DNA from: Sphingorhabdus pulchriflava
GTDB taxonomy: Bacteria; Pseudomonadota; Alphaproteobacteria; Sphingomonadales; Sphingomonadaceae
DNA length: 64,000 nt
Direction of reading: 5' to 3'
Assembly (NCBI RefSeq): GCF_003367235.1
Contig: NZ_QRGP01000001.1
Coordinates: forward strand, 1,984,001 to 2,048,000
Shown one piece after another: positions 15,687 to 21,311 of the stretch (position 1 is the first letter of the stretch; each line of letters starts with the position of its first letter). Position numbers and translations under genes: made by a program. The notes under the pieces were generated by a model that saw only the letters and a list, made by a program, of their open reading frames with translations, was not told the origin of the DNA and did no database searches.

Positions 15687-17321
15687 TTATTTTCCCGCGC
15701 CAGCAACTTCGGGATAGGTTTGCCATAGCGTACCCAATGCAGCCTTCAGCGGATCGAGCCATTGTTCATAGGGCTTCCACTGCTCGACCCCGTCGCGATT
15801 GATCGGGCGGCGGACCTGTTCGCTCGATGCGGTGCGCACCGCACGCTTGTTCTGGTGGAAGTTGAGGCAGGCTTCCTCGAACGGCACGTCCAGATAATCG
15901 AGCATTGCGCGCACCTGCGCCTCGGGCTGTTCAATCACCTGTTCGTGGATCACGCGGTGGACGCGCCCCGGTAGCACCCTGTCGAAATGCGCCATCAGCC
16001 GCACATAATCGGCATAATAGCGTCCCATATCAGACAGGCTGTAGCTGAACGCCTGCCCCTTGGCGAAATGCTGGCGGAAGTTTGAAAAACAGCAATCGAG
16101 CGGATGCCGCCGCGCGTCGATGATCTTTGCATTGGGCAGGATCAGGTTGAGCAGGCCGGTATAGACCCAGTTGTTGGGCAGCTTGTCGATGTAAAAGGGT
16201 TTGTCGGTCTTGCGCTGCACAGCGGTGCGCTGAAGGAATTCAGCGCCCAGTTCGGTCAAACGCTCCGCTGGCATATCCCTGACCGCATCGACCCAGCCGC
16301 TCGGCGTTGCCTTGCCTTCGCGCAGCGCAATGGCAGGCAAGTCGGGCAATTCCATCGTGCCTTCGATCTGCGAATGGCTGGCCAATATCTGTTCGAGCAG
16401 CGTTGAACCGGCACGCGGCATGCCGAGGATGAAGACCGGATCGGGCGTGGGATCGCCCTGCCCTGCACGGGCAGCGACAAATTCGGGGGTGAAGGTGGCG
16501 ATGATCTTGTCGACATGCTGGGTCACCACATCAGGGTCGTAGTCTAGCTGGCTGTGCCGGATCGCATTGGCCCGTTCATAATGGCCGAAAGAAGTTTCGG
16601 CCTCACGTCGGTCGTCAAACGCCTTACCGAGCGCGAAATGCAGATGTAGCCGGTCATCGTCAGAGAGGCTAGGTGCCTCCAGTGCGGCCTCCATCGCCGC
16701 AATGTCGGCATCATCGAAGCGGACGGTCTTCAAATTGGCAAGACTCCACCAGACCTCGCCCAAGGTCGGCTCCACCGCCAGCGCGCGGCGATAGGCGGCG
16801 ATGCCTTCGTCCTGTTGCCCAACGGTCTTGAGGACATGGCCATAGCTCATCCAAAGCTTGGCATGCTGCGGGAAACGCTGCGTCAGCGCTCCATAGAGCG
16901 CCAGCGCCTCGTCATATTCGCCAATCCGACCCAGCGCGGCGGCCATAAGGCTTTGCCCGCTGGCATCGTCAGCGTCGACTTGCAGCACGGTATCAAGCAA
17001 CTCGACCGCCTCTTCGAAACGGTTTTGACGATAGAGTATTCCGGCAAGGTTTGATCGTGCAGCAGTGAAATCGGGGGCAAGCTCGATGGCCCGTCGAAGC
17101 AATGCCTCACTGTCCTTGAACCGCCCCAGCCGCGCCGCCAGTTGCGCCATCAGACGGATTGCCGCTACATCGAACGGGTCTTTATGCAGATGTGCGCGCA
17201 AAATCGGCTCGGCATCGGGCAGCCGGTCTTCGTTGATCGCCAGCGCCGCCTCGATAAGTTGCGGATTGCGCATGCCGCGCGCGACATAGTGGCTGGCAAG
17301 ATCAGGGGCGTTCTGCGTCAT
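15687..17321 (-). CDS. TPR-repeat sulfotransferase-domain protein
   Basis: A 544-residue two-domain protein. The N-terminal half (about residues 10-250) is a row of tetratricopeptide repeats (ARLGRFKDSEALLRRAIELA, LYRQNRFEEAVELLDTVLQV). The C-terminal half is a sulfotransferase with the PAPS 5'-phosphosulfate loop FILGMPRAGSTLLEQIL and the 3'-phosphate region DARRHPLDCCFSNF. Such proteins move sulfate from PAPS to proteins, glycans or lipids; the target is unknown. I start at ATG 17321; an in-frame TTG at 17357 would overlap recF. No signal peptide or membrane segment. Confidence 0.85.
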   Translation of the reverse strand: MTQNAPDLASHYVARGMRNPQLIEAALAINEDRLPDAEPILRAHLHKDPFDVAAIRLMAQLAARLGRFKDSEALLRRAIELAPDFTAARSNLAGILYRQNRFEEAVELLDTVLQVDADDASGQSLMAAALGRIGEYDEALALYGALTQRFPQHAKLWMSYGHVLKTVGQQDEGIAAYRRALAVEPTLGEVWWSLANLKTVRFDDADIAAMEAALEAPSLSDDDRLHLHFALGKAFDDRREAETSFGHYERANAIRHSQLDYDPDVVTQHVDKIIATFTPEFVAARAGQGDPTPDPVFILGMPRAGSTLLEQILASHSQIEGTMELPDLPAIALREGKATPSGWVDAVRDMPAERLTELGAEFLQRTAVQRKTDKPFYIDKLPNNWVYTGLLNLILPNAKIIDARRHPLDCCFSNFRQHFAKGQAFSYSLSDMGRYYADYVRLMAHFDRVLPGRVHRVIHEQVIEQPEAQVRAMLDYLDVPFEEACLNFHQNKRAVRTASSEQVRRPINRDGVEQWKPYEQWLDPLKAALGTLWQTYPEVAGAGK

Positions 17322-17349
17322 ATCGATGCGCTTATCGCACTCGCCGGTT

Positions 17350-18414
17350 TCAGCCAAGCGCGCTCTCGGCGATGTGCAGCCGCAAGGCGTCTGAACCTGC
17401 GCTATCGAACAGGCTTTCCTCGGTGCCTGTCATCCACACCTGGCTGCCGGTATCGTAGAGCCGCTCGAACAAGGCCTCGCGACGACCGGGATCGAGATGC
17501 GCCGCGATCTCATCAAGCAGCAGGATCGGTGGTGCCCCGCGCAATTCAGCCACCAGCCGGGCATGGGCAAGAATAAGCGAGAGCAGCAGCGCTTTTTGCT
17601 CGCCCGTTGAACAGCTTGCCGCTGGCTGGCCATGGCCGTCATGCCGAACGAGCAGGTCGTTGCGGTGCGGGCCGGACAATGTGCGACCCGCCGCCCGTTC
17701 ACGCCCGCGATTGGCTTTCCAGCCAGCGGCCAGCGTGTCGGCAACGGGGATGCTGTCATCCTCCAGCACTAGCAAAGGCCGGGCAAAGGGTGATGGCGGC
17801 ATGGCGGCAAGCCGTTCGGAAAGCTGCGCCACTGTGCGCGACCGGCTTTCGACAATTGCCGCCGCATATTGCGCCATACTGGCTTCGACCGCATCGAACC
17901 AGGCGGCATCGCCCTGGCCTTCGGACAGCATCCGGTTGCGCTGGCGCAGGGCATTTTCATAACGGCTGCTATTGAGCGCGTGCGAAGGCTCAAGCGCCAG
18001 CACCAACCGATCAAGAAAACGGCGGCGCGCGCCGGCCCCGTCCATGAACAGCCGGTCCATCGCAGGCGTCAGCCACAATATGGACAGCCATTCCGCCAGA
18101 TCGTTGATCGCGGCATTGGCACCGTTGATATGCACGATACGGCGCCCCGGTGCTTCCGCCGACACTGCAGTGCCCAGCGCCGTCTCGTCGAGCTTCGCAG
18201 CCACGGCAAATCCTCCGCATCCACCTTGCCGAGCCATTTCGTGCAAATTGCTCCGGCGCAGACCCCGCCCCGGGACCAACAACGACACCGCCTCCAATAT
18301 ATTGGTCTTCCCGGCCCCGTTTGCGCCATGCAGGATAATGAAGCGCCCCTGCGGACGCACGCTCAGCGCCGCATGGTTGCGAAAATCTGTCAGGTCGAGC
18401 CTATCGAGCGCCAT
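17350..18414 (-). CDS. recF: DNA replication and repair protein RecF
   Basis: RecF, 354 residues, an SMC-like ATPase that loads RecA at single-strand gaps with RecO and RecR. It starts [14 protein letters not shown], the usual RecF opening, with Walker A GANGAGKT at residues 30-37, the signature [11 protein letters not shown], and Walker [13 protein letters not shown]. It is not beside dnaA or dnaN here, which is common in this order. The sulfotransferase gene follows on the same strand. Confidence 0.95.
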
Positions 18415-18600
18415 GCCAGCGCCCTATCCGAGATGCAGCCTGCGTCAATGTCGATTTGGGTTAGCTGCACATCCATGGTGCGGATTTCACCAACTCCATT
18501 CCAAAATGTTGGCGCATTTTCCCAATATTCAGATTTGTAAAATCGTCTTCCAAGAGCATGAATTACATCATGATATTGTATTTATGTGTTTTTCTAAAAC

Positions 18601-18617
18601 TGGCACGCCCCATGCTT
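18601..18617 (+). promoter_or_regulatory. Sigma-54 (-24/-12) promoter
   Basis: TGGCACGCCCCATGCTT has the invariant GG (18602-18603) and GC (18614-18615) exactly 10 nt apart, with the full -24 half TGGCACG. Transcription would start near 18627, leaving a leader of about 45 nt before the first micropeptide. The AT-rich stretch upstream could hold sites for an enhancer-binding activator such as PspF; none identified. Confidence 0.75.
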
Positions 18618-18671
18618 ATACCTTGGCATCCCCGGAATGATCCGGAACATGAACAAGGAAGGACTTTTAAA

Positions 18672-18791
18672 ATGACCATTTCGACCCGCAACCAGTTCGC
18701 TTCGGTTTTCGCAGCTATCGCATGTGCATTCCTGACCATCGGCGTCAGCATTGCTCCGGCCGTTGCTCCCATGTCGCCTTATCTTGCCTGA
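18672..18791 (+). CDS. Micropeptide 1 of a duplicated pair, hydrophobic, 39 residues
   Basis: A 39-residue peptide with RNQFASVFAAIACAF and TIGVSIAPAVAP, one hydrophobic helix after a short polar N-terminus. A strong ribosome site AAGGAAGGA (18655-18663) lies 8 nt before the ATG. The next gene encodes a clear paralogue: about 18 of 31 aligned positions are identical (RNQ, CAF, SIAPAV), and the leader around the ATG is duplicated too. Translation from this ATG is supported by the paralogy. It could be an inner-membrane peptide, or be cleaved after AVA; both are inference. Function unknown. Confidence 0.75.
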   Translation: MTISTRNQFASVFAAIACAFLTIGVSIAPAVAPMSPYLA

Positions 18792-18821
18792 TCGCAAGAC
18801 GATTTCGAAAGGATTTTTGAA

Positions 18822-18932
18822 ATGAACGCCCCGCTTCGCAACCAGCTTTTTTCGATCGCAGCAGCCTTGGTCTGCGCGTTCATCACCGTCGGCATGAGCA
18901 TCGCGCCCGCCGTCAGCAATGGTATCGCATGA
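18822..18932 (+). CDS. Micropeptide 2 of a duplicated pair, hydrophobic, 36 residues
   Basis: A 36-residue paralogue of the preceding peptide (RNQLFSIAAALVCAF, TVGMSIAPAVSN). Ribosome site AAAGGA (18808-18813) is 8 nt before the ATG, the same spacing as in copy 1. Its stop overlaps an in-frame ATG of the PspC gene (ATGA at 18929-18932), which ties it to that gene. The pair is too short for usual gene callers. It is probably a small membrane peptide made with the PspC protein under sigma-54 control. Confidence 0.75.
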   Translation: MNAPLRNQLFSIAAALVCAFITVGMSIAPAVSNGIA

Positions 18933-18979
18933 TGCGCCGCGATCCTGTCATCAAAACAGTTAATGGGAGTAAAGGTAAA

Positions 18980-19156
18980 ATGACCAAATTGACACTCGAT
19001 CGTACCAACAAGAAAATCATGGGCGTTTGCGCCGGACTTTCGAACTGGAGCGGCATTGATACTACCGTCATCCGTATAGCTTTTGTTATAGCTACTCTGG
19101 TTGGCTTTGGTTCGGCTCTTCTGATCTACATCGCATTGGGGTTGATCCTCGATTGA
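18980..19156 (+). CDS. PspC-domain membrane protein
   Basis: A 58-residue single-domain PspC protein (phage shock protein C family), acting in the inner membrane. It starts MTKLTLDRTNKKIMGVCAGLSNWSG, the usual PspC opening with the conserved GVCAGL, then one membrane helix ending ALLIYIALGLILD. I start at ATG 18980, behind AAAGG (18971-18975). ATG 18929 is in frame and overlaps the micropeptide stop, adding a basic 17-residue extension. Psp proteins respond to envelope stress, and the sigma-54 promoter upstream fits, but no pspA or pspF is in the window. Confidence 0.85.
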   Translation: MTKLTLDRTNKKIMGVCAGLSNWSGIDTTVIRIAFVIATLVGFGSALLIYIALGLILD

Positions 19157-19228
19157 TCCCAACGATGTAAACAAACGTCACCCCATGCCGTTATTCAATT
19201 TGGACTTTAACGTTATGGGTGGTAATAG

Positions 19229-19609
19229 ATGGCGCAGATACAGACTTCCAGCCAGGAGCGGCAATGCGTGTCTGAAGGCGACCAACGTTCAAACGCCCCC
19301 GAATCCGGGATGGAGGCCCGCCGCTTCAACCGTGACCATGTTTATATACCGATTGAAATCCGCGAACATGGCGCAGGGCGGCACAAAGGGCAGATGATCG
19401 ACCTGTCGCAATCCGGTTGTCGCATAAATTGTCCGGTCCTGCTCAATCTGAATCGCAGGGTCTTTGTGACCCTGCCAGAATTTGCCCCGCTTGAAGTTGA
19501 AGTCATCTGGAAACAGGGCGACGAATATGGTTGCTCATTCCACAATGGACTTCATCAGGCAGTATACGACCATATCGTCGCGAAATTCCCGTCACTGGGA
19601 GGCTATTGA
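19229..19609 (+). CDS. PilZ-domain protein
   Basis: A 126-residue PilZ protein, a likely cyclic di-GMP receptor. The two binding motifs are present: the RxxxR-type RRFNR near residue 31 and D/NxSxxG as DLSQSG about 30 residues later. VTLPEFAPLEVEVIWKQGDEYGCSF is the usual beta-barrel end. It is cytoplasmic, with a polar N-terminal extension. Its stop overlaps the TTG start of the nuclease gene. Confidence 0.85.
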   Translation: MAQIQTSSQERQCVSEGDQRSNAPESGMEARRFNRDHVYIPIEIREHGAGRHKGQMIDLSQSGCRINCPVLLNLNRRVFVTLPEFAPLEVEVIWKQGDEYGCSFHNGLHQAVYDHIVAKFPSLGGY

Positions 19610-20172
19610 TCACCCTCAAATTCCCTGACGGCCGGGTGTATCGCAAACGCGGTTACCGCATTGTGCGCGGCCTATTTTTCCTCTTGATGCTCGGCGCCAT
19701 TTTGGCCGCCTGGTATTATGCCGATGGTATTGTTTCACGCGAAACGATCATTGCTGCACGATCGCCCATGCAGACCGCCGACGGTGACAGCTTTGCCATC
19801 GGCCCACGCAAATTCCGCCTGAAGGGCATCGATGCCCCTGAATACCGCCAGACCTGCAATGATGCCAAAGGTATGAAATGGGAATGCGGCAAGGCGGCCC
19901 GGGCGGCACTCGAAAAACTGCTGCTCGAACCCGGCCTCACATGTGTAACCGATGCGCAGGACCGCTATCATCGCGCACTCGCCACCTGCAAAACCACGCA
20001 AACACCTGATTTGGGTGCCAAACAGGTGACCGACGGATTCGCGGTGTCACACGAATATTATGGCCTGCGCGACTATGGCAGCGAAGAAGACGCAGCCAGC
20101 TCGGCTCGCCGGGGTATCTGGCAAGGCAACTTCATTCAACCCGACCTTTGGCGCGCGACACAGACACGTTAG
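19606..20172 (+). CDS. Membrane-anchored thermonuclease-family protein
   Basis: A staphylococcal nuclease-like protein of 188 residues. One N-terminal membrane helix (LFFLLMLGAILAAWYYA) places the nuclease domain outside the cytoplasm. The catalytic pattern is present: FRLKGIDAPEYRQTC with the Arg and Glu, then DRYHRALATC with the second Arg. Four cysteines could form disulfides. I chose TTG 19606 because a strong GGGAGG lies about 5 nt upstream and the TTG overlaps the PilZ stop (TTGA). It probably cuts extracellular or periplasmic nucleic acid. Confidence 0.82.
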   Translation: MITLKFPDGRVYRKRGYRIVRGLFFLLMLGAILAAWYYADGIVSRETIIAARSPMQTADGDSFAIGPRKFRLKGIDAPEYRQTCNDAKGMKWECGKAARAALEKLLLEPGLTCVTDAQDRYHRALATCKTTQTPDLGAKQVTDGFAVSHEYYGLRDYGSEEDAASSARRGIWQGNFIQPDLWRATQTR

Positions 20173-20180
20173 AGCAAAGT

Positions 20181-21311
20181 TCAGGCAACCTTCCGCACGA
20201 AGACCGTACCCGCTGAATAGCCCGCCCCGAAAGAGCAGATCAGCCCGGTATCGCCGACCTTAAGGTCTTCATTATGCTTGTGGAAGGCGATGATCGAACC
20301 CGCGCTCGAGGTATTGGCATAGGTGTCGAGCACAGTCGGGCTCTCATCTTCATTCGCTTCATGTCCCAGCACGCGCTGCGAAATCAGGCGGTTCATTCCC
20401 TGATTGGCCTGATGCAACCACAGACGGCGCAGATTACTGCCCTCAAGGCCCAAATGCGCGGCATGGTCGACGATCATTTGCGCGACCATCGGCACCACTT
20501 CCTTGAACACCTTGCGGCCTTCCTGGACAAACAGCTTGTCGGTCTTGGGCCCGCTCTGGTCAACCGGCCCCTTGCCCTCGGCGCGGTTGAGAAAACCGAA
20601 ATTGTTGCGGATATTGTTGCTAAACTGGGTCTTCAGCCGGGTACCGAGAATTTCCCAATGCTTGGCAGGGGCCAGATCCTTGGCCTCGACAAGAATGGCG
20701 GTTGCAACATCGCCAAAGATGAAGTGGCTGTCGCGATCGCGCCAGTTCAAATGGCCCGAGGTGATTTCGGGGTTCACCACCAACACCGACCGCGCGTTGC
20801 CGCTGCGGATATAGTCAGCTGCGGTCTGGATGCCAAAGGTGGCGGACGAGCAAGCGACATTCATATCGAAACCGAAACCGCGCTCCATACCCAGCTCGTG
20901 CTGGATTTCGACCGCCATTGCCGGATAGCCGCGCTGCATATTCGAAGCGGCGCAGAGGACAGCGTCGACATCGGCGATATCGCGTCCGGCCTTCGCAAGC
21001 GCATCGCGACAGGCGGCAACGCCGATTTCGGCCATCAGCGAAATCTGGTCATTGGGGCGCTCGGCATAGCGCGGCTCCATGATTTCGGGATCGATGATAC
21101 CGGTCTTGTCAATCACATGGCGCGATTTGATGCCGCTCGCTTTTTCGACAAATTCAACCGAGCTGTGCACCAAAGGCTCGGCATCGGGATTTTGTGCATT
21201 ATACAGATCAACATAGGCGTTGAAGCTCGCGACCAGTTCCTCGTTCGAGATGGTATCGCTAGGGGTGTAAAGCCCGGTCGCCGAAATGACCGGAATGAAG
21301 GCGTCTGACAT
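20181..21311 (-). CDS. FabH-like 3-oxoacyl-ACP synthase III family protein
   Basis: A 376-residue thiolase-fold condensing enzyme. The triad is visible: Cys154 in NVACSSATFG, His300 in WLHQANQGMN and Asn333 in TYANTSSAG. It is longer than housekeeping FabH (about 320) and has a distinctive FNAYVDLYNAQNPDAE N-terminal region, so it belongs to a FabH-like subgroup that may prime with, or condense, longer acyl chains. I start at ATG 21311 (MSDAFIPVISATG). It is divergent from an acyltransferase gene, which supports a lipid role; the exact reaction is not known. Confidence 0.85.
   Translation of the reverse strand: MSDAFIPVISATGLYTPSDTISNEELVASFNAYVDLYNAQNPDAEPLVHSSVEFVEKASGIKSRHVIDKTGIIDPEIMEPRYAERPNDQISLMAEIGVAACRDALAKAGRDIADVDAVLCAASNMQRGYPAMAVEIQHELGMERGFGFDMNVACSSATFGIQTAADYIRSGNARSVLVVNPEITSGHLNWRDRDSHFIFGDVATAILVEAKDLAPAKHWEILGTRLKTQFSNNIRNNFGFLNRAEGKGPVDQSGPKTDKLFVQEGRKVFKEVVPMVAQMIVDHAAHLGLEGSNLRRLWLHQANQGMNRLISQRVLGHEANEDESPTVLDTYANTSSAGSIIAFHKHNEDLKVGDTGLICSFGAGYSAGTVFVRKVA

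Follow-up and report, generated by a model that had tools for sequence, protein, structure and literature searches.

The phage-shock response protects the proton-motive force, and the nearest described system to the locus reported here is the enterobacterial PspF regulon, with its pspABCDE operon and the orphan gene pspG. In E. coli, damage releases PspF from PspA, and the available text of the same source states that only in the Enterobacteriaceae had PspF been described as a Psp regulator (PMC9239133). The PspC domain of E. coli PspC comprises residues 1-68 and a putative leucine zipper lies at residues 77-98, the zipper being a determinant of PspA interaction and signalling; a fragment of residues 40-68 still binds the small effector PspG, which binds PspC via its membrane part (accessible part of PMC3068692). 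The role of the small phage-shock membrane proteins, such as PspD and PspG, is still open even in E. coli.

PspF control in sphingomonads is not new as such, since the accessible text of a 2024 review discusses PspF and sigma-54 as inducers of the psp operon of Zymomonas mobilis (PMC11186258). The leader gene before pspA in that species, ZMO1062, is reported to be upregulated together with pspA, pspB and pspC in xylose (PMC8645129, in part) and adjoins pspA in a temperature-transcriptome table (PMC8237431, in part). At locus L318 of our set, both published ZMO1062 primers fall between the sigma-54 site and pspA. A 2024 survey of Psp partners mentions the PspFABC operons of some Alphaproteobacteria once in its available text, and a term search of its main text returned no sphingomonads (PMC11237479). 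Among the matches listed from freely accessible published papers, we found PspF in sphingomonads for Zymomonas only and nothing on micropeptides beside PspC.

The locus described here lies in a window of 64,000 nucleotides of the Sphingorhabdus pulchriflava genome, the whole stretch of DNA that was analysed, and all simple coordinates below are positions in that window. Its features are as follows.

17350-18414, minus strand: recF, a name read from an SMC_N/RecF match
18508-18525, plus strand: putative PspF-type upstream activator site GTTGGCGCATTTTCCCAA, 93 nt upstream of the -24 element
18601-18616, plus strand: predicted sigma-54 -24/-12 promoter TGGCACGCCCCATGCT with GG-N10-GC spacing; transcript start expected at about 18626
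18632-18645, plus strand: short hairpin CCGGAATGATCCGG near the predicted 5′ end of the mRNA
18655-18663, plus strand: purine-rich ribosome binding site of micropeptide 1, AAGGAAGGA, ending 8 nt before the ATG
18672-18791, plus strand: open reading frame of micropeptide 1, 39 aa with a single hydrophobic segment (RNQ...CAF...SIAPAV...YLA)
18807-18813, plus strand: purine-rich ribosome binding site of micropeptide 2, GAAAGGA, ending 8 nt before the ATG
18822-18932, plus strand: open reading frame of micropeptide 2, 36 aa, a paralogue of micropeptide 1
18980-19156, plus strand: open reading frame of a short PspC (PspC′), 58 aa; an alternative start at 18929 would give 75 aa
19229-19609, plus strand: gene of a PilZ protein, downstream of pspC′
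Ending at 20172, plus strand: gene of an SNase-like protein, downstream of the PilZ protein gene

Most of what the original prediction had read from the letters alone is present in this layout: the exact promoter spacing, two hydrophobic paralogues of 36-39 residues that have RNQ, CAF and SIAPAV in common, a ribosome site 8 nt 5′ of each ATG, and a PspC domain in the third open reading frame. Its claim that pspC overlaps the second peptide fared less evenly. The overlap at the window locus requires the start at 18929, and in the two same-genus genomes fetched (G137 and G068) an in-frame upstream start is missing after the last peptide, the start of the protein corresponding to the later ATG, 18980. 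The overlap is therefore doubtful in the genus itself, whereas an in-frame pspC′ start overlapping the stop of the last peptide (NTGA) occurs in 57 of 77 loci of the comparison set described below. The PilZ and SNase-like genes (19229-20172) lie 3′ of pspC′ on the same strand. No Rfam family was found in 17000-21000, plasmid searches gave no match to 18480-19160, and a role in anti-phage defence was set aside after PADLOC gave no match.

A search with the short PspC gave a match in 139 of 149 genomes of the family. Ninety of these matches, from 90 of the 139 genomes and with the window's own included, were taken mostly in order of E-value; those left out were G097, because of a contig edge, any second match in a genome and most of the weaker best matches. 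The 90 comprise 11 long canonical PspCs and 79 short ones, two of which (L081 and L085) lie within psp operons. The pattern TGG[CT]A[CT][GA]-N5-TGC is present upstream at all 77 standalone short-pspC loci, the window included, and no sigma-54 site was found within 800 nt upstream of the 11 long canonical PspCs.

The sigma-54 motif alone is weak evidence, because exact TGGCACG-N5-TGCW sites number eight in the S. pulchriflava genome against four for a reversed control pattern. The window promoter goes far beyond chance because its motif is kept in all 77 standalone loci and is joined by an upstream activator site in common with the pspA promoter. Loss of the promoter in related genomes had been named beforehand as grounds for giving up the idea, and the opposite was found. 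A sigma-70 promoter was also considered, and the plus strand around 18600 shows no match to its consensus. A single rpoN match was found in the genome (3.2 Mb, 6 contigs), which also encodes pspF, at C1:958211-959263, divergent from pspA.

The activator motif was learned from pspA promoters only. Thirty PspF loci yielded 27 pspA promoters (in the other three, none was found with the search pattern), and an expectation-maximization search with a seed chosen by eye gave an 18-bp motif close to TATAGTGAAWTTTCCCAA, located 91-94 nt before the -24 element in 25 of the 27. Scored with this pspA-only matrix, 75 of the 77 micropeptide promoters lie above the 95% level set by dinucleotide shuffles and 63 above the 99% level, leaving two promoters with no site above the 95% level; the best site lies at -90 to -95 in 72. 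With the matrix counted without the window's own genus (site positions having been picked with the full matrix), GTTGGCGCATTTTCCCAA at 18508-18525 scores 21.5 bits and ranks first among 127,966 window positions on both strands, the next best reaching 11.8. Among the eight genomic sigma-54 sites, high scores are confined to the two psp promoters (22.1 and 14.7 bits), with the others at 5.3 or below. We infer from its place in front of pspA that the motif is the binding site of PspF. In E. coli, an IHF site lies between the activator site and the promoter of pspA. IHF-like sites with at most two mismatches occur in 37 of the 77 promoters versus 51% in shuffles, which is no enrichment.

Between promoter and pspC′, every one of the 77 standalone loci has at least one hydrophobic open reading frame of 28-51 aa: one copy in 48 loci, two in 24, three in four and four in one. 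The resulting total of 112 peptides comes from a finder that requires a run of hydrophobic residues and a loosely defined ribosome site. Under fixed criteria, the same interval gives a peptide in 74 of 77 loci versus four on its reverse strand, and the control intervals give 0 and 0 downstream and 2 and 0 upstream. Substitutions in 30 species pairs point to selection on the amino acid sequence, with a pooled pS of 0.524, pN of 0.254 and pN/pS of 0.48, although single pairs range in dN/dS from 0.07 (strong constraint) to 0.94 (almost none) and two pairs were not computable. Conservation, finder controls and substitution pattern together back the original prediction that the micropeptides are translated, and non-conservation of the peptides, which was to count against it, is at odds with 112 open reading frames in 77 loci. 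The coding nature of the micropeptides and the regulation of the operon are well supported by comparison between genomes.

The peptides have a common design. A proline is conserved in at least 90% of 72 aligned peptides, 83 of the 112 are without a charged residue or histidine after residue 16, the first 15 residues carry a net charge of 0 or +1 in 97 of 112, and 82 of 112 end in [VILMF]-Ala. Overlap with the pspC′ start accounts in part for the terminal alanine: 51 of the 77 last peptides close with GCATGA, in which the Ala codon and the TGA together form the pspC′ start. This explanation holds for last peptides but not for non-last copies, 24 of 35 of which also end in Ala. In some genera (L024, L047) the peptides are only 28-29 aa long and consist of almost nothing but the membrane span.

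Scans of 72 peptides against Pfam and NCBIfam assigned none of them to a family. Weak one-member matches (PTS, YgaP-like, PhrC, DUF5325, cytochrome b559) were taken as chance, as was a single weak match to solved structures (E 0.069). In the window, micropeptide 1 matches no Pfam or NCBIfam family and micropeptide 2 has weak, unrelated matches only. The PspG family is not among the weak matches of the 72 peptides in these libraries, which may or may not contain a PspG model. Our own peptide profile (A1) was built from 72 of the 112 peptides, with the 28-29-aa type omitted for length and near-duplicates removed by hand; as a consequence of the peptides left out, it misses G023 and G108. In the S. 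pulchriflava genome the profile, which was built with both window copies, finds only these two (E 1.8e-6 and 3.2e-6).

PspC′ matches PF04024 with E 6.5e-18 and 64.7 bits (cut-off 25). Its match to TIGR02978 covers model positions 3-59 of 121 and reaches 53.1 bits, below the cut-off of 104: the protein is a PspC domain with no C-terminal tail, and the full length that TIGR02978 describes is absent. From the start of the match to the stop codon, canonical PspCs of the family measure 363-372 nt and short PspCs 159-201 nt. No solved structure matches PspC′ at E 0.01. A glycine of PspC′ occupies what we take to be the position of E. coli G48. Short PspCs also occur inside psp operons: L078 (G106) and L081 (G003) have an extra one between the PspB-like open reading frame and the long PspC, and L085 (G020) has one in the equivalent place, as judged from its upstream side.

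PspC and PspF tend to be missing together. Ten of the 149 family genomes have no PspC match, and eight of these have no PspF-like match either. Another of the ten, G061, has only a borderline PspF match at 6.7e-61 (in other genomes the best match is no weaker than 1.6e-120), so that with G061 counted a true PspF relative is missing in nine of the ten. The exceptions are G082, with PspF and no PspC match, and G022, with a PspC match and no PspF, both of them genomes 66-67% complete. The peptide profile matches 110 of the 149 family genomes at E 0.01 and is represented in 70 of the family's 96 sampled genera. Of the ten genomes that lack a true PspF, it matches G070 alone, at 0.0069. In wider samples its matches stay inside the family: the five in a class-wide sample of 385 genomes, and the 91 in an order-wide sample of 196 genomes (85 match-less genomes of which are not listed), all belong to it. 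In G120, the large contigs C1 and C2 have profile matches at both ends (L184 and L185 are the right ends), a pattern as if an array-containing repeat broke the assembly.

In the canonical psp locus of S. pulchriflava, the sigma-54 site TGGCACGCCTCCTGCT stands before a leader of 59 aa, after which come pspA, a PspB-like open reading frame and a 127-aa PspC, with pspA and PspB named by reading translations. Leaders of this kind are common. At the 27 pspA loci, 21 have a small leader open reading frame with an ATG start, two have one with a GTG start, three have a longer protein and one proceeds to pspA directly with no leader. Twenty further pspF regions gave a short leader in 12, a longer one in three and none in three, no promoter being found in the other two.

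Many of these leaders look like members of the micropeptide family. With a profile built from pspC′-operon peptides only, 20 of 30 hand-picked leader sequences score at least 10 bits (16 of the 25 short ones and 4 of the 5 longer ones). None of 900 shuffles does so, and 5 of 3394 other N-termini do; of these five, four are similar to the longer leaders and three had already been counted in the 30. The leader of S. pulchriflava itself does not match (0.5 bits), nor do nine others of the 30. Three longer leader-type proteins were scanned with Pfam: two are above the TonB_C cut-off, and L197, which is not beside pspA, only just reaches TonB_2. Longer leader-type proteins stand behind PspF-type promoters at L123, L127, L134, L318, L319, L329 and L197, and most of these seven have a signal-like N-terminus resembling the micropeptides. 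At L196 (G142), a PspA-like gene that lies far from the pspF locus of that genome is preceded by a sigma-54 promoter, an activator site and a micropeptide of its own.

The peptides also occur without any PspC. We examined 20 hand-chosen regions around further profile matches, one of which, L198, is itself a pspC′ locus. In 15 a sigma-54 match is followed by one to four micropeptides and in L197 by a longer protein, and in the other four no promoter was found. An activator site of at least 8 bits lies at -91 to -93 in 14 of these 16 extra promoters (missing in L180 and L189). For 15 of the 16, some 0.9 kb was checked for the start of a PspC or PspA: L198 has a PspC, L196 the PspA-like protein and 13 have neither. 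Twelve of the 13 carry micropeptides, with only 855 nt following in the case of L187. The arrays L190 and L191, both in G095, agree in their promoter and in their first three peptides, differ in holding four and three peptides in all, and look like a recent duplication.

A promoter-first scan for activator site plus promoter across a collection of 84,980 species genomes gave at least 119 loci. Those listed include several per genome, overlap with the loci compared above (L287 and the G120 locus L076 are one and the same), and are in an order that is possibly not random by taxon. All bear sphingomonad, erythrobacter or related names except L230, L250 and L317, which are labelled only Alphaproteobacteria or Proteobacteria. 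Ten of the 119 have too little downstream DNA (nine under 300 nt, L287 with 370 nt). Among the matches listed, all 109 readable loci have PspC′, PspA, micropeptides only or a small secreted protein downstream: PspC′ in 65 (under strict criteria, a micropeptide is present in 58 of them), PspA in 31 (24 with a micropeptide), micropeptides only in nine (each with at least 1.3 kb of downstream DNA), and a secreted-looking protein of 81-91 aa with the pattern YC[VI] ... C-x-[TS] in four (L199, L218, L227 and L254), that pattern having been widened after its four members were known. The one member scanned, L218, matches no Pfam family. These proteins are a putative fourth class of PspF targets.

The 5′ hairpin of the transcript is only partly supported by the sequence comparisons. 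A hairpin of -4 kcal/mol or lower lies near the predicted start in 75 of 77 leaders, against 58% in mononucleotide shuffles, and there are 75 distinct 5′ arms. Against dinucleotide shuffles the whole leader has a mean z of -1.4, with 21 of 77 below -2, and the 27 pspA leaders average 0.1; the window leader folds no better than its dinucleotide shuffles (z -0.1). RNAalifold gave no consensus structure for 48 of the 77 leaders. In pairwise counts over species pairs that are not independent, pairing was kept in 54% of cases where both sides had changed, versus 37-40% with slid partners, and single changes broke a hairpin pair in 79%.

Taken together, it appears that the phage-shock switch also controls a second operon across this large family of environmental bacteria. 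We consider it probable that the operon is an effector branch of the phage-shock response under the control of PspF and sigma-54, and that micropeptides and PspC′ cooperate in the inner membrane. Membrane damage would lead PspF, encoded beside pspA (C1:958 kb), to bind 18508-18525, and bound PspF would activate sigma-54 RNA polymerase at 18601-18616, the psp operon being fired too. A single mRNA would then yield two single-span inner-membrane micropeptides and a domain-only PspC. The micropeptides would be oriented N-in/C-out and probably made in quantity, given their promoter-proximal position, good ribosome sites and tandem and extra copies, which also suggest that micropeptide dosage matters. 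By analogy with E. coli PspG, they may be membrane-stabilising effectors together with PspC′. We propose that PspC′ scaffolds them as PspC does PspG, outside the PspA switch, because it lacks the tail with the leucine zipper and keeps the membrane part that binds PspG. Comparative evidence supports the promoter, the activator site common to pspA, the translation of the peptides and their family-wide conservation, and PspF is the presumed protein at the activator site.

A more specific history is possible, and we offer it tentatively. The micropeptides may form a new class of stress-induced membrane peptides that has kinship with the signal-anchor of a TonB_C-type periplasmic psp leader, perhaps even its origin there, and has expanded into tandem copies and PspC-free arrays, so that their dosage would set membrane protection in sphingomonads, with the tail-less PspC as a dedicated partner in a PspA-independent effector branch.

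Other explanations fit parts of the same data. Chance open reading frames behind a chance sigma-54 motif might be suspected from a motif that is not rare in the genome (eight matches against four), but conservation, the activator site, the finder controls and the outcome of the promoter-first scan among the matches listed leave this practically no chance of being right, and we regard it as ruled out by the finder controls and the substitution pattern. A position directly 5′ of pspC′ and pspA, a pspC′ start overlapping the last stop in 57 of 77 loci and short 5′ hairpins are what one would expect if the micropeptides were regulatory leaders, whose translation controls that of pspC′ (or pspA) and whose sequence matters little. 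At 12 of 15 extra promoters, arrays of one to four peptides have no PspC or PspA within about 0.9 kb, and nine of the 109 loci among the matches listed are micropeptide-only. The constraint at the amino acid level (pooled pN/pS 0.48) and the hydrophobic-Ala end kept by non-last copies with no overlapping pspC′ start (24 of 35 with Ala) also speak against a purely regulatory role, which we judge quite unlikely.

The peptides could instead be precursors resembling signal peptides that, once exported, give rise to short peptides in the periplasm, acting as signals or protease ligands. The profile does match signal-like N-termini at 10 bits or more (4 of 5 longer and 16 of 25 short leaders), TonB-type domains occur in the three longer leader proteins scanned with Pfam, and the proline conserved in at least 90% and the [VILMF]-Ala end of 82 of 112 peptides are further points in its favour. 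Against it stand the low charge of the N-region, which is net 0 or +1 for 97 of the 112, and the peptides of 28-29 aa that are nearly all membrane span (L024, L047). We think it unlikely, with a small chance of being correct. Size, a single span, a stress promoter and 5′ hairpins are also features of type I toxin-like, membrane-active peptides that slow growth under stress by lowering the proton-motive force, and metabolic silencing by the small membrane protein YohP offers a precedent in print (PMC12719787, accessible part). A consensus promoter scan of 18600-19156 gave no antisense promoter candidate, however, and the peptides are predicted to share a transcript with PspC′, their regulon being one known for its protection of the proton-motive force. 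We find this very unlikely. The effector branch under PspF control is the reading that we favour.

Several known systems bear comparison with such a branch. LiaI of the B. subtilis lia system is, like the micropeptides, a small membrane protein made with a PspA relative (accessible text of PMC11237479), and differs in regulator and size, the comparison being one of descriptions only. The psp locus of the sphingomonad Zymomonas mobilis (ZMO1061-1065) likewise has a leader gene 5′ of pspA, and PspF/sigma-54 control is discussed for it in the review cited above. Its leader gene product, ZMO1062, differs in being a TonB_C-type protein of 172 aa that is labelled pspD in print and is not a micropeptide, and its N-terminus does not match the peptide profile (-1.1 bits). 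Among the matches listed and in the portions of those sources available, we found no printed account of the second operon, of its family of peptides or of the PspC-free arrays. The family could be found from its promoter rather than its sequence. As it is widespread and multi-copy, deleting copies in a tractable sphingomonad would be a direct test of the peptides as effectors.

Like other members of the PspC family (PF04024/TIGR02978), PspC′ has the PspC domain with its GVCAG motif, and it differs in ending where the domain ends; it is the counterpart of the domain part (1-68) of E. coli PspC alone, with the zipper tail missing. The likeness to the enterobacterial regulon lies in PspF/sigma-54 control and in a second, unlinked locus for a small inner-membrane protein. 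Where enterobacteria have pspG, the second locus here has one to four micropeptides of 28-51 aa, set apart from PspG by description and not by sequence comparison, together with a tail-less PspC. This would be a PspF-type regulon outside the enterobacteria that joins a family of peptides of about 40 aa, unnamed by Pfam and NCBIfam, to the membrane domain of PspC.
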